NCBI RefSeq assembly: GCF_000468095.1
Contig: NZ_ASZC01000002.1
Location: 372,001 to 436,000, forward strand
Direction: 5' to 3'
DNA from: Pantoea sp. AS-PWVM4
GTDB taxonomy: Bacteria > Pseudomonadota > Gammaproteobacteria > Enterobacterales > Enterobacteriaceae
DNA: 64,000 nt
Positions 5,033-46,520 of this stretch are shown one piece after another. The notes below the pieces were generated by a model. That model was not told where the DNA came from. It ran no database searches and was given only the letters and a program-made list of their open reading frames with translations. Made by a program: the position numbers and the translations under genes. Numbering within the stretch: position 1 is the stretch's first letter; every line of letters begins with the position of its first letter.

Positions 5033-5078
5033 CACACCGCCGTACCCGCGCGATAAATCGCGCCGCTACGGAGGTGTG
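5033..5078. repeat. REP-like palindrome, single unit (copy A)
   Basis: Nested inverted repeats: CACACC/GGTGTG outermost, CCGTA/TACGG next, and GCGCGAT-aa-ATCGCGC at the core. The right part is the unit shared with the elements at 37170-37236 and 45648-45723. It fills the space between the convergent ycaD and pflA stops. Confidence 0.8.
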
Positions 5079-23692: not shown

Positions 23693-23875
23693 ATGGATCA
23701 CCGTTTGCTTGAAATTGTGGCCTGCCCAGTTTGCAATGGAAAACTGTACTACAACAAAGAACAGCAGGAGTTAATCTGCAAACCCGATGGGCTGGCATTC
23801 CCGGTGCGCGATGGTATTCCGGTATTACTGGAAAACGAAGCGCGAACCTTGTCTGTTGAAGAGATCCATCCATGA
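23693..23875 (+). CDS. ycaR: Trm112-family protein YcaR
   Basis: A 60-aa cytosolic protein of the UPF0434/Trm112 group. It has one CPVCNG motif at about 11-16 but lacks the second Cys pair of true zinc-binding Trm112 proteins. Its precise role is unknown; eukaryotic relatives activate methyltransferases. The ATG at 23693 has GGAGGAGA directly upstream, much better than the upstream start of the longer frame, and gives the family N-terminus MDHRLLEI. It overlaps kdsB by 4 bp (ATGA). Confidence 0.93.
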
Positions 23876-24621
23876 GTTTCGTCGCCATTATTCCGGCGCG
23901 CTACGCTTCGACGCGTCTGCCGGGCAAGCCATTGGTGGATATTCTTGGTAAACCGATGGTGGTGCATGTGATGGAACGTGCGCGTGAATCCGGTGCCGAA
24001 CGGGTGATTGTTGCCACGGATCATCCTGATGTTGCGGCGGCGGTAGAAGCGGCAGGTGGTGAAGTCTGCATGACGCGTGCTGACCATCATTCCGGTACCG
24101 AGCGCCTGGCGGAAGTGATTGAAAAATATCAGTTCCCGGATGACACCATCATTGTCAATGTGCAGGGTGACGAGCCGATGATCCCGCCAGCGATTGTGCG
24201 CCAGGTGGCGGCAAACCTGGCTGAGGCTGATGCGGGTATGGCGACCCTTGCGGTGCCCATCCGTGATGCGGAAGAAGCGTTCAACCCAAATGCGGTAAAA
24301 GTGGTTACTGATGCGCAGGGTTATGCACTTTACTTCTCGCGCGCCACCATTCCGTGGGATCGCGAGCGTTACGCGAAATCGCGCGAGCAGGCTGGCGATA
24401 CGCTGCTGCGTCATATTGGTATCTATGCTTACCGCGCAGGCTTTGTCCGTCGTTATATCTCGTGGCAACCCTGCCCGCTGGAGCAGATTGAGTTGCTCGA
24501 GCAGTTGCGTGTCTTGTGGTATGGCGAGAAGATCCATGTCGCCGTAGCAGAGACGGTGCCCAGCGTTGGTGTTGACACCCCGGAAGACCTGTTGCGCGTT
24601 CGCGCTGCCATGCAGGCTTAA
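23872..24621 (+). CDS. kdsB: 3-Deoxy-manno-octulosonate cytidylyltransferase
   Basis: KdsB activates KDO to CMP-KDO for transfer to lipid IVA in the LPS inner core. It is 249 aa (E. coli 248). The nucleotidyltransferase motif [14 protein letters not shown] lies at 8-21, and [12 protein letters not shown] (about 95-105) binds the metal and nucleotide. Other family blocks are [14 protein letters not shown] and [11 protein letters not shown]. The start overlaps the ycaR stop, so the two are translationally coupled. With msbA and lpxK upstream it forms an LPS cluster. Confidence 0.97.
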
Positions 24622-24630
24622 TCCCGCAGC

Positions 24631-24660
24631 GGCCAGCTTTTGCGGCTGGCCCTGCTGTTC
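24631..24660 (+). terminator. Hairpin after kdsB
   Basis: A 7-bp stem GGCCAGC/GCTGGCC with a TTTTGCG loop sits 9 bp after the kdsB stop. The trailing sequence is CTGCTGTTCTTTG, a poor U-tract, so termination is probably partial. Confidence 0.55.
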
Positions 24661-24733
24661 TTTGATCTGGCGCATCGCTCTGCGCTACCGTGACCTCCAG
24701 GATATTTAAGTCACTTTCTCAGGAGGATGACGC

Positions 24734-37169: not shown

Positions 37170-37236
37170 AACCGTAGCGGCGTGATTTAACACGCGTCTT
37201 TTTCGCAATGCGCGATAAATCGCGCCGCTACAGGTT
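37170..37236. repeat. REP-like palindrome, paired units (copy B)
   Basis: Outer arms AACCGTAGCGGCG and CGCCGCTAC-A-GGTT enclose two small hairpins, GCGTG-type on the left and GCGCGAT-aa-ATCGCGC on the right, around a T-rich spacer. It fills the gap between the convergent gloC and aspC genes and could act as a bidirectional terminator or mRNA 3' end. It belongs with 5033-5078 and 45648-45723. Confidence 0.85.
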
Positions 37237-42781: not shown

Positions 42782-43027
42782 GGTGCGTTTCAGCATCCTC
42801 TTCCGCGGAGCATAGCCCGGTGTTCAACAAAGTCATAAAGACGCAGGAGTATAAAACAGTAATAGACCGCGATCACACCATATTTGCAGGGGGCAGGTCG
42901 ATGGTCATTTGTGCCATTGTTAATAAATTGTAGCATTTTCTGCTAAGGCACGCATTGTGCGTGGCAAGTGAGGCCCAACCCGCTTAGACTTTGACGGGTA
43001 TACCTTTTAACGATGCGAGAAGGATTT

Positions 43028-45643
43028 ATGACGCAACAGCCGCAAATAAAATATCGTCACGACTACCGTGCACCCGATTTCACCATCACTGATATCGATT
43101 TGACGTTTGACCTTGATGCGGCCACCACGCGCGTCACCGCGGTCAGCCAGGTGAAGCGTTTAGGCAACAGCCAGGCTGAGCTGCGTCTGGATGGGGAAGA
43201 TTTGACCCTGGTATCACTGGCGGTGGACGGCACTCCGTGGACGCATTATCGCGAAGAAGAGGGCGCGCTGGTGTTGAGCCAGGTGCCAGACACCTTCACC
43301 CTGACCATCATCAATGATATCCACCCGGACCAAAACACCGCGCTGGAAGGTTTGTATAAGTCAGGTGAGGCGCTGTGCACGCAATGTGAAGCCGAAGGTT
43401 TCCGTCATATCACCTGGTATCTGGACCGCCCGGATGTGCTGGCGCGTTTTACCACCACCATTATCGCCGATGCCGCGCGCTATCCGTACCTGCTCTCCAA
43501 TGGCAACAAGCTGGAGAGTGGTCGTCATGAAGATGGTCGCCACTGGGTAAAATGGCAGGACCCGTTCCCGAAACCCTGTTATCTGTTTGCGCTGGTCGCT
43601 GGTGATTTTGATGTGCTGCGCGACAGCTTTACCACCCGCTCAGGCCGTGATGTGGCGCTGGAGATCTTTGTCGATCGCGGCAACCTTGACCGTGCCGACT
43701 GGGCAATGACCTCGCTGAAAAACAGCATGAAGTGGGATGAGGAGCGTTTTGACCTCGAATATGACCTCGATATCTTTATGATCGTCGCGGTGGATTTCTT
43801 CAATATGGGCGCGATGGAGAATAAAGGGCTGAACGTCTTTAACTCTAAATACGTGCTGGCGAAAGCGGAAACCGCCACCGACAAAGATTACCTCGGTATT
43901 GAAGCGGTGATTGGTCACGAATATTTCCACAACTGGACCGGCAACCGCGTCACCTGCCGTGACTGGTTCCAGCTCAGCCTGAAAGAGGGGCTGACGGTGT
44001 TCCGCGATCAGGAGTTCAGCTCAGATCTCGGTTCCCGCGCGGTGAATCGCATCGATAATGTGCGCGTGATGCGCGGCGCGCAGTTCGCTGAAGATGCCAG
44101 CCCGATGGCACACCCGATTCGCCCGGATCAGGTCATTGAGATGAACAACTTCTACACCCTGACGGTGTATGAAAAGGGTTCAGAAGTGATTCGCATGATG
44201 CACACCCTGCTGGGCGAAGAGAATTTCCAGAAAGGGATGCAGCTCTATTTTGAGCGCCATGATGGTAGCGCGGCGACCTGCGACGATTTCGTGCAGGCGA
44301 TGGAAGATGCGTCTAATGTCGACCTGTCACAGTTCCGTCGCTGGTATAGCCAGTCCGGTACGCCGGTGCTGACGGTGCGCGATGATTACAACCCGGAGCT
44401 GGAGCAATATACGCTGCACGTTACCCAGCACACGCCACCGACCGCCGAGCAGAAAGAGAAGCTGCCGTTACATATCCCGCTGGATATTGAACTGTATGAC
44501 GGTGAAGGCAAGGTGATCCCGCTGCAACACAATGGTCATCCGGTGCACCATGTGCTGAACGTCACCGAAGAGTTCCAGAGTTTCGTATTCGATAAGGTTT
44601 ATTTCCAGCCAGTGCCCTCATTGCTGCGCGAATTCTCTGCGCCGGTGAAGCTCGACTATAAATGGAGCGATGCACAACTGACGTTCCTGATGCGTCATGC
44701 CCGTAACGACTTTTCCCGCTGGGATGCAGCACAAAGCCTGCTGGCAACCTATATCCGCCTGAATGTCGCGCGTCATCAACAGGGGCAACCGCTGTCGCTG
44801 CCGCTGCATGTGGCTGATGCCTTCCGTGCGGTGTTGCTGGATGAGCAGGGCGATCCGGCGCTGATGGCGCTGATTCTGACGCTGCCTTCGGAGAATGAAA
44901 TCGCTGAGTTGTTTGAGGTGATTGATCCGCAGGCCATTGCTGAAGTGCGTGAGGCGCTGGTGCGCACCCTGGCGAAAGAATTGAGTGATGAGTTCCTGGC
45001 GGTTTATCGTGCCAATCAGAGCCATGAGTACCAGGTTGAGCATGCGGAAATCGGTAAACGCGCGCTGAAGAACGTCTGCCTGAGCTACCTGGCCTTTGCT
45101 GACGTCGAACAGGCTGACAAGCTGGTACAGGCGCAATATCAGCACGCCACCAACATGACTGATGCGCTGGCGGCAATGTCGGCGGCGGTCGCTGCACAAC
45201 TGCCGTGTCGTGATAGCTTAATGGCGGCCTATGACGAGCGTTGGCATCAGGATGGTCTGGTGATGGACAAATGGTTTGTGCTACAGGCCACCAGTCCGGC
45301 GTCTGACGTGCTGAGCAAGGTGCGTGAACTGCTGCATCATCGCTCTTTCACCATGGGTAACCCCAACCGCATTCGTTCGTTGATTGGCGCTTTTGCCTCG
45401 GCTAATCCGTCGGCCTTCCATGCCAAAGATGGCAGCGGTTATCAATTCCTGGTGGAGATGCTGACCGATCTCAACACGCGGAACCCGCAGGTTGCTGCGC
45501 GCATGATCGAGCCGCTGATTCGTCTGAAGCGTTACGATGCCGGGCGCCAGGCGTTGATGCGTCAGGCGCTGGAGACGTTGAAAGGACTGGATAAGCTGTC
45601 TGGCGACCTGTATGAGAAGATCACCAAAGCGTTGAATGCGTAA
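43028..45643 (+). CDS. pepN: Aminopeptidase N (alanyl aminopeptidase)
   Basis: PepN is the main broad-specificity zinc aminopeptidase of the M1 family, acting in the cytosol downstream of ATP-dependent proteases. The 871-aa protein (E. coli 870) has the GAMEN exopeptidase motif at 261-265 and the zinc motif HEYFH at 297-301. The third ligand is Glu320 in LKEGLTVFRDQE. N-terminal sequence MTQQPQIKYRHDYRAPDF matches homologues, and AAGGAT lies just before this ATG. A longer frame starts at 43013 but lacks that support. Confidence 0.97.
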   Translation: MTQQPQIKYRHDYRAPDFTITDIDLTFDLDAATTRVTAVSQVKRLGNSQAELRLDGEDLTLVSLAVDGTPWTHYREEEGALVLSQVPDTFTLTIINDIHPDQNTALEGLYKSGEALCTQCEAEGFRHITWYLDRPDVLARFTTTIIADAARYPYLLSNGNKLESGRHEDGRHWVKWQDPFPKPCYLFALVAGDFDVLRDSFTTRSGRDVALEIFVDRGNLDRADWAMTSLKNSMKWDEERFDLEYDLDIFMIVAVDFFNMGAMENKGLNVFNSKYVLAKAETATDKDYLGIEAVIGHEYFHNWTGNRVTCRDWFQLSLKEGLTVFRDQEFSSDLGSRAVNRIDNVRVMRGAQFAEDASPMAHPIRPDQVIEMNNFYTLTVYEKGSEVIRMMHTLLGEENFQKGMQLYFERHDGSAATCDDFVQAMEDASNVDLSQFRRWYSQSGTPVLTVRDDYNPELEQYTLHVTQHTPPTAEQKEKLPLHIPLDIELYDGEGKVIPLQHNGHPVHHVLNVTEEFQSFVFDKVYFQPVPSLLREFSAPVKLDYKWSDAQLTFLMRHARNDFSRWDAAQSLLATYIRLNVARHQQGQPLSLPLHVADAFRAVLLDEQGDPALMALILTLPSENEIAELFEVIDPQAIAEVREALVRTLAKELSDEFLAVYRANQSHEYQVEHAEIGKRALKNVCLSYLAFADVEQADKLVQAQYQHATNMTDALAAMSAAVAAQLPCRDSLMAAYDERWHQDGLVMDKWFVLQATSPASDVLSKVRELLHHRSFTMGNPNRIRSLIGAFASANPSAFHAKDGSGYQFLVEMLTDLNTRNPQVAARMIEPLIRLKRYDAGRQALMRQALETLKGLDKLSGDLYEKITKALNA

Positions 45644-45647
45644 TTAA

Positions 45648-45723
45648 CCGTAGCGGCGCGATAAATCGCGCGGCTTTTTGCCAATGGCGGCAGAAAACTG
45701 CGCAATAAATTGCGCCGCTACGG
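45648..45723. repeat. REP-like palindrome, paired units (copy C)
   Basis: The outer arms CCGTAGCGGCGC and GCGCCGCTACGG are perfect complements. Inside lie GCGCGAT-aa-ATCGCGC on the left and GCGCAAT-aa-ATTGCGC on the right, around a short spacer that itself contains small inverted repeats. It starts 4 bp after the pepN stop and ends 5 bp before the ssuB stop, filling the convergent gap. Confidence 0.88.
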
Positions 45724-45728
45724 GGCGA

Positions 45729-46520
45729 TTATCGCTGTTGTGCAAAGCGTAGCGGCTGTTCGCTGGAGCTACGCTTCATCACCCGATCCAGCACTTCCGC
45801 TTCCAGTTCAGCCAGTCGGGCAGAGCCGCGACGGCGTGGACGCGGCAGATCAACCGTTAAATCCAACCCGATTTGTCCTTCTTCAATCAGCAATACCCGA
45901 TCCGCCATCGCCACCGCTTCGCTGACGTCGTGCGTCACCAGCAACACGGTAAAGTTATGCTGTTGCCACAGCGATTCAATTAATCCCTGCATCTCAATAC
46001 GCGTTAAGGCGTCCAGCGCACCGAGCGGTTCATCCAGCAGCAGCAGACCGGGACGGTGGATCAACGCACGCGCCAGTGCGACACGCTGTTTCTGCCCGCC
46101 GGACAGCGCGGCGGGCCATTCGTTGGCACGCTCCGCCAGGCCCACGGCTGCCAGCGCTTCCAGCGCATTGTCCCGCCAGGCACGACCTTTTAGCCCAAGC
46201 CCGACGTTATCAATCACCTTTTTCCACGGCAGCAGACGCGCATCCTGAAACATCAAACGCGTATCATCGCGTGCCGACGCCAGCGGGGCATTGCCGGCCA
46301 GTAATTCGCCTTGCGTGGTGGATTCCAGTCCGGCCAACAGGCGCAGCAGGGTGCTTTTGCCGCATCCGCTGCGGCCCACCACCGCGACGAATTGTCCGGC
46401 CGGAATATGCAGATCAATATGGTTCAGGATGGTGCGGTCACCATAGCGTTTGACTACGCCGTTAACGCCCACCGGTGTTCCGCTGTTAAGCCGCGCCGGA
46501 GTGAGGGGTGCAGTGCTCAT
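45729..46520 (-). CDS. ssuB: Aliphatic sulfonates ABC transporter, ATP-binding protein
   Basis: SsuB is the ATPase of the SsuABC importer for alkanesulfonates under sulfur starvation. The 263-aa protein has Walker [11 protein letters not shown] at about 48-57, the signature [15 protein letters not shown] at about 139-153 and Walker [13 protein letters not shown] at about 160-171. The start overlaps the ssuC stop by 4 bp. It is the last gene of ssuEADCB and converges with pepN across the repeat element. Confidence 0.95.

Follow-up and report, generated by a model that had tools for sequence, protein, structure and literature searches.

GTAG-tagged REP elements enriched at convergent gene ends of Pantoea sp. 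AS-PWVM4, and their putative cognate RAYT

Related elements between convergent genes

The window (the whole stretch analysed, 64,000 nt of contig NZ_ASZC01000002.1) carries pepN (aminopeptidase N, TIGR02414) at 43013–45643 on the plus strand and, facing it, the gene of an ssuB-type aliphatic sulfonate ABC transporter ATP-binding protein (NF008420) at 45729–46520 on the minus strand. The gap between these convergent genes is filled by a head-to-head dimer (45648–45723) of short palindromic units. The first unit (45650–45671, plus strand) has a GTAG tag at 45650–45653, a GCGCGAT/ATCGCGC stem and no mismatch to the family described below, and a TTTTT run (45675–45679, plus strand) lies 3 nt past its head. 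Hairpin and run together are laid out like a predicted intrinsic terminator that would act on pepN transcripts. The second unit (45700–45721, minus strand) has two mismatches and a compensated stem (GCGCAAT/ATTGCGC), and the TTTT past its head (45694–45697, minus strand) faces ssuB transcripts. The predicted RNA fold of 45648–45723 is −50.6 kcal/mol on the plus strand (z −7.7) and −48.8 kcal/mol on the minus strand (z −8.0).

The same unit, GTAGCGGCGCGAT-TT-ATCGCGC, is common to three elements of the window (5042–5069, 37174–37231 and 45650–45721), all with stable predicted RNA folds. Seven matches to GTAGCGGCGCGATNNATCGCGC were found in the window at up to three mismatches, every one of them within these elements, against a chance mean of 0.01. 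Like 45650–45721, the element at 37174–37231 is a head-to-head dimer with its GTAG tags outside. It consists of a decayed plus-strand unit with three mismatches (37174–37195), followed past its head by a TTTTT run (37199–37203, plus strand), and a minus-strand unit without mismatches (37210–37231), the head of which has no T-run behind it. The spacer of this dimer is identical in the present genome and in two related genomes (G031, of the same species, and G012), and it is therefore regarded as an old inherited copy. At 5042–5069 there is a single palindrome, tagged at both ends but with one of the tags decayed to GTAC: a minus-strand unit without mismatches (5048–5069) overlaps a two-mismatch plus-strand match with the GTAC tag (5042–5063). 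It is probably a collapsed dimer.

All three elements lie between convergent genes: an MFS transporter gene (NF002962) and pflA at 5042–5069, genes for a GloB-like metallo-hydrolase (TIGR03413, below cut-off) and an aromatic aminotransferase at 37174–37231, and pepN and the sulfonate transporter ATPase gene at 45650–45721. We take ycaD, gloC, aspC and ssuB to be the E. coli equivalents of the flanking genes. Genes were called by a gene finder trained on the 856-kb sample described below; the stops of the six flanking genes agree with the open reading frames, and some starts differ. Elsewhere in the window, convergent pairs either overlap (25627/25607) or leave 4 bp between them (54940/54945); for called genes, every convergent gap of at least 50 bp therefore has an element. 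The preliminary description, which had reported three such elements with a common unit, two of them paired head to head like a BIME and all of them between convergent genes, is borne out on each of these points. An Rfam search at gathering thresholds gave no match anywhere in the window.

At 23749–24675, two long open reading frames overlap on opposite strands (308 aa on the minus, 249 aa on the plus strand), and the choice between them as the gene affects whether the window has another convergent gap.

A GTAG-tagged REP family

Across the whole genome (4,990,872 bp, 46 contigs), 444 forward and 442 reverse matches were found at up to three mismatches (886 raw), while the reversed pattern used as a control gave one forward and no reverse match; the family proposed from the window is evidently present elsewhere. 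The unit is near-palindromic and many copies match on both strands, so raw strand-matches exceed distinct units. In an 856-kb sample of about 17% of the genome (C2:1–456000, which includes the window, and C3:1–400000), 186 raw matches at up to four mismatches correspond to 127 distinct units, with the consensus GTAG-CG-GCGCGAT-TT-ATCGCGC. The letters of the tag are kept in 91–98% of these units. Among the GTAG-tagged palindromes of the sample, 87 of 90 have an AT-2nt-AT centre; with three permuted tags the corresponding counts were 2/18, 1/12 and 4/12. Double changes in stem pairs kept the pairing in 13 cells and broke it in none, beside 39 single changes, a tally that counts copies with four kinds of change and not independent events.

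The units form 73 clusters: head-to-head pairs with their tags outside and single units number 28 each, and there are 12 tail-to-tail pairs and five larger clusters. Twelve of the 127 units have a tag at either end of the palindrome, and convergent gaps hold ten of these twelve. Collapse of a dimer is their probable origin, because at one divergent site (gap 242) the dimer of the present genome is matched by a collapsed palindrome in another genome of the species. Nearly all units (124/127) are extragenic, in gaps between predicted genes (15 bp tolerance), and two of the three inside predicted genes are matches with four mismatches. With a tag and a short palindrome, more than 100 copies, extragenic location and inverted dimers or BIMEs, the elements are a GTAG-tagged REP family, often in REPIN- or BIME-like inverted pairs. 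A 43-bp REP-containing unit near G000:C2 273894 (gap 240) is tandemly duplicated in the present genome (G000) and single in G031.

The distribution of the family is narrow. Among 198 genomes from 154 genera of the host family, nine have any match at up to two mismatches, and none except the present genome has more than two. In the genus itself, matches occur in 33 of 61 genomes and reach up to 934 in one genome, and the plasmid records carrying the element are from Pantoea in 15 of 15 cases. A search of E. coli genomes with the element at 45640–45735 gave no match.

Gene orientation and turnover

In the 856-kb sample, the share of gaps that carry units is 39/118 for convergent, 27/494 for co-directional and 4/118 for divergent neighbours (convergent versus co-directional, p = 1.7e-14), which makes 70 REP-bearing gaps. 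The preference is also seen in gaps of at least 60 bp (29/53, 27/235 and 4/117, respectively; convergent versus co-directional p = 7e-11) and in those of 80–150 bp (21/27, 5/76 and 1/27; p = 3e-12). Two of the four REP-bearing divergent gaps exceed 1 kb, and one of these two matches has four mismatches; both gaps may hold uncalled genes. The 54 units in co-directional gaps lie a median of 46.5 nt from the upstream stop and 172 nt from the downstream start. REP copies are thus strongly enriched at convergent gene ends rather than confined to them: the strict confinement first claimed is contradicted by the co-directional and divergent sites, but copies are by no means equally common in all classes of gap. 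A liking of REPs for convergent and unidirectional gaps was already known (PMC3733652).

Turnover of copies was compared for the C2 stretch. In G031, a unit is present in 43 of 44 orthologous REP-bearing gaps, the exception being a four-mismatch match; one gap has the full dimer only in G031 and a remnant in the present genome. Copies vary inside the species, too: identity falls below 93% in 11 of 37 shared gaps, where the differences include exchanged spacers, one collapsed dimer and one tandem duplication. In G012, a unit is present in 25 of 41 orthologous REP-bearing gaps, and two gaps have units only there. Sharing is more frequent for convergent gaps (20/27) than for other REP-bearing gaps (5/14; p = 0.023). 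Outside the units, the convergent gaps that share a REP with G012 have a median identity of 49% (17 gaps), compared with 73% for REP-free convergent gaps (7 gaps), and gaps can therefore stay occupied while the copies change.

Insertion of REPs into terminator loops was considered for gaps 124 and 307, where comparison of the present genome with G012 gave the appearance of a REP dimer placed between terminator arms. In a systematic test, flanking arms of at least 7 bp were found at 14 of 73 clusters against 8.8 expected (8 bp, 6 against 2.7; 9 bp, 4 against 1.2). This excess was discounted because three of the four clusters with 9-bp arms have REP-like arms, and the test is not counted as evidence.

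The RAYT gene

The NCBIfam RAYT model NF047646 detects one gene in the genome (G000:C3:86541–86909, minus strand; E = 9e-16, 59.7 bits), within an open reading frame of 150 aa at C3:86499–86951 (minus strand; L237:1459–1911). Exact copies of the family REP stand on both sides of it, at C3:86425 (−) and 86464 (+) on one side and 87079 (+) on the other (L237 1385, 1424 and 2039), in agreement with the preliminary description, which had named a RAYT elsewhere in the genome as a possibility. The protein has the motifs NHLH, WQ and YIEQNP, and N73, H74, L75, H76 and Y130 are invariant in ten RAYTs of the genus. Its identification as a RAYT is based on the HUH motif, the catalytic tyrosine and the flanking REPs, not on the NF047646 cut-off of 80 bits, which is exceeded in none of the 61 genus genomes. 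E. coli RayT scores 179 bits (4.6e-53) with the same model, which argues against an E. coli subtype for the protein found here.

The open reading frame gave no match to Pfam at E ≤ 0.001, and a search of the genome with Y1_Tnp (PF01797) gave nothing at the same threshold. The idea of REP-rich genomes lacking a RAYT, based on PF01797, was rejected: this model also misses E. coli RayT (E = 0.017), and NF047646 found the RAYT. Since Y1_Tnp misses both proteins, claims of 'REPs without a RAYT' that are built on it can be wrong.

The search of the 61 genus genomes gave a RAYT for 11 of the 24 with at least ten matches to either of two REP families (the second is described below) and for none of the other 37 (p = 6e-6). 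No RAYT was found in 13 of the 24, and RAYT loss, or a search miss, is common among REP-bearing genomes of the genus. Weak RAYT hits in the REP-poor G007 and at G017:C59 were dropped, as PF01797 gave E = 1e-41 and 5e-40 against 7e-5 with the RAYT model. The PF01797 hits in two REP-rich genomes were read from their open reading frames as an IS200/IS605-type TnpA beside a TnpB-like frame (G036) and as a broken TnpA (G040). Taken together with the REPs flanking the gene, the data suggest that the family is spread, or was formerly spread, by the cognate putative RAYT of the same genome.

Directly upstream of the RAYT gene of G024 lies a tandem array of BIME-like pairs with GCGCGAT and GCGCAAT stems (L232:104–1316), with a period of about 174 bp in its first part.

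Lineage of the RAYT

In a tree of 30 proteins, one branch (support 99/100) unites E. coli RayT, 11 RAYTs of the host family, a protein from a P. aeruginosa plasmid and a Chloroflexota protein. The ten genus RAYTs fall outside this branch and sit, partly unresolved, among proteins of Anaerolineaceae, Leptolinea, Spirosoma and Chitinophagaceae with 30–34% identity to the RAYT of the present genome. A profile of the genus RAYTs has matches in 15 of the 198 family genomes, with 4e-77 for the present genome and 3e-10 at best for the 14 others; 11 of these 14 were read, and all 11 group with E. coli RayT. A contig search of genomes named three relatives of the protein, all distant. By its place in the tree, the RAYT does not belong to the clade that the other sampled enterobacterial RAYTs form.

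With E. coli RayT (group 2, subclass 2.2), the match by blastp extends over 96 residues at 20.8% identity, although the layout is like that of the E. coli REP/BIME system, a REPtron with a single RAYT gene flanked by its own REPs and with inverted pairs. The motifs resemble those of TnpA-REP subclass 2.4, or RAYT group 4, to which the protein may belong; according to the account in PMC6006769, that subclass shares NHxH, WQ and YIxxNP as well as double-foot REPs. The likeness is one of motifs, drawn without reference members: the set for subclass 2.4 is NH[IFV]H, WQ and YIxNNP, and related RAYTs of the genus have YIENNP (G055), YIQNNP (G013) and YIAENP (G008). Reports of subclass 2.4 come from Cyanobacteria, Bacteroidetes and various phyla, and double-foot REPs are noted for part of them (PMC6006769). 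The nearest relatives of the present RAYT found beyond the genus belong to Chloroflexota and Bacteroidota. In contrast to the long hairpins described in that account of subclass 2.4 (PMC6006769), the REPs found here are short hairpins.

REP stems and RAYT type

The REP stems differ with the type of RAYT among the relatives. In the present genome, G031, G012 and G024, the RAYTs (60–99% identical to that of the present genome) are flanked by GTAGCGGCGCGAT REPs. A second set is 46–50% identical to it. In this set the RAYTs of G028 and G055 are flanked by GTAGGGTCGCCAT, those of G008 and G017 by GTAGGGGCGCCAT with GTAGGGGGCGCAT or GTAGGGGACGCAT, and those of G013 and G060 by GTAGGGTGCGCAT, to which G013 adds GTAGGGTCGGCAT; a truncated RAYT gene in G018 is flanked by GTAGGGTCGCCAT and two further stems. 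The six intact RAYTs of the second set are united in the tree (95/91) and the first set is unresolved. The GTAG tag and an AT-TN-AT centre are constant across the stem types. The second family of GTAG palindromes, GTAGGGTCGCCAT-TN-ATGGCGACC, has 760 matches in G055 and one in the present genome; this family, together with other stems that keep the tag and centre, occurs in genus genomes such as G055, G056 and G018.

Co-evolution of RAYTs and REPs has already been reported for other groups, 2 and 3, and the same paper describes perfect palindromes with short loops in these groups (Corneloup et al. 2021, PMC8266576). Compared with the groups treated there (PMC8266576), the stem here varies among near relatives of one genus, and the tag and the AT-TN-AT centre stay constant.

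A proposed role in termination where genes converge

T-runs and separate terminators both bear on the role of the elements. Of 115 units (the 12 double-tagged ones were left out), 47 have a TTTT no more than 10 nt from the head and one has it on the tag side, the background being 6.3% of intergenic 10-nt windows. In convergent gaps of 40–400 bp, a separate site resembling an intrinsic terminator, on either strand, was found in 7 of 33 gaps with a REP and in 18 of 29 without (p = 0.0017). When the REP hairpins are counted, 22 of the 33 have a terminator-like site.

The pepN/ssuB gap was compared at the 30 best-matching pepN loci (pepN was matched in 60 of the 61 genus genomes). Sixteen have a REP, 12 of them from the family of the present genome (family A) and four from another (family B), and 14 have none. 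A separate terminator on the pepN strand is present in 2 of the 16 REP-bearing and 11 of the 14 REP-free gaps (p = 6e-4), related genomes and related copies entering this and the preceding comparison as non-independent data. Both separate terminators in the REP-bearing gaps are hairpins with the same ATTTAT centre. Eight of the 16 REP-bearing gaps have no hairpin followed by a T-run even with the REP counted. In the orthologous regions, four units of the related GGTCGCCAT family occupy the same convergent gap without a TTTT. In L117 (G040), a different palindrome, ccctctcccgcttgcgggagaggg, takes the place of the REP or terminator seen in this gap in relatives.

A takeover of termination at such ends is the best-supported functional reading of these elements. 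A cognate RAYT (TnpA-REP), an HUH transposase encoded elsewhere in the genome, would spread, or would once have spread, the REP copies, and these would be retained chiefly behind stop codons. At convergent gene ends, a REP would then replace the usual intrinsic terminator. Its hairpin (GCGCGAU-UU-AUCGCGC), which in many copies has a T-run at the head, would stop transcription, and a head-to-head pair would do so from both sides. Judged from the sequence comparisons, the probability that a RAYT-mobilised REP/REPIN family occupies the terminator niche at convergent ends is put at roughly two in three. The bidirectional terminator of the preliminary description has indirect support from the scarcity of separate terminators in REP-bearing gaps; of the 15 convergent head-to-head pairs only four have a TTTT behind both heads, nine having it behind one and two behind none. 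Other results that weigh against the reading are the absence of a T-run at most units, the eight REP-bearing pepN/ssuB gaps in which no hairpin with a T-run is seen, the four GGTCGCCAT units lacking a TTTT, and tail-to-tail pairs, whose outward-facing heads are found in convergent gaps as well (17 units). The sub-cut-off score of the RAYT and the 13 REP-bearing genomes in which none was found likewise count against it.

The strongest competing account is that REPs are selfish DNA that inserts anywhere or prefers 3′ ends and survives where it is harmless, so that promoterless convergent gaps collect copies and termination was never selected. The poverty of divergent gaps (4/118) and the turnover of copies even inside one species are as expected on this account, as is the T-run frequency, which is not significantly higher at convergent than at co-directional units (p = 0.12). 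It does not, however, predict the scarcity of separate terminators in REP-bearing convergent gaps, nor the one-sided T-run at the head, and we regard it as possible with the odds somewhat against it.

The classical role of E. coli REPs is to block 3′-to-5′ exonucleases and so stabilise the upstream mRNA. A putative post-transcriptional role of this kind would agree with the stable folds of the three window elements, the compensated stem changes and the position of co-directional units nearer to the upstream stop than to the downstream start. Alone, it leaves the T-runs and the scarcity of terminators unexplained, and it is considered unlikely. Supercoils build up where genes converge, and the BIMEs of E. 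coli are bound by gyrase, IHF and Pol I; putative sites for these proteins might accordingly manage supercoils between converging transcription units. Single units make up 28 of the 73 clusters and 27 of the 70 REP-bearing gaps are co-directional, however, which makes this highly improbable. That the three sites are coincidental palindromes without a common origin is already refuted by the counts in the window (7 against 0.01) and genome-wide (886 against 1).

Relation to known elements and implications

REPs and REPINs with a RAYT are a known kind of element, and it is the present family and its RAYT lineage that look new for this group of bacteria. In its GTAG tag, the shortness of its palindrome, its high copy number, its inverted dimers, its preference for convergent and unidirectional gaps and its linked RAYT, the family agrees with the published GTAG REPs (Di Nocera et al. 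2013, PMC3733652). The enterobacterial family GTAG-3 is described there as having unpaired nucleotides between stem and loop (PMC3733652), whereas the present REP has an uninterrupted 7-bp stem and a 2-nt loop. The word Pantoea is absent from the main text of that paper; the present REP may equal one of the 24 families described there (PMC3733652). The arrangement of two inverted REPs and a spacer as one unit is that of REPINs as outlined by Bertels and Rainey (2011, PMC3116915), with the difference that here the spacer often starts with a T-run. By title and abstract, the open-licence literature on RAYTs and REPINs in Pantoea holds no description of the family, and that on REPs as bidirectional or intrinsic terminators does not describe it in Pantoea.

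A wider scenario, which we offer tentatively and consider rather less likely than its opposite, is that a horizontally acquired REP/RAYT system of non-enterobacterial origin took over termination at many convergent ends. At pepN/ssuB, two families with different stems and RAYT types would each have displaced the terminator in different species.

The build-up of REPs at 3′ ends is a long-standing question, and the pepN/ssuB gap is a natural experiment that bears on it, one REP family being present in 12 of its 30 genomes, another in four, and an ordinary terminator in 11 of the remaining 14. The RAYTs of the genus, 46–99% identical to that of the present genome and with differing flanking stems, are useful for mapping hairpin recognition by RAYTs. 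If the wider scenario is true, a selfish element would have become an interchangeable, self-spreading terminator, with a stem that co-evolves with its transposase.
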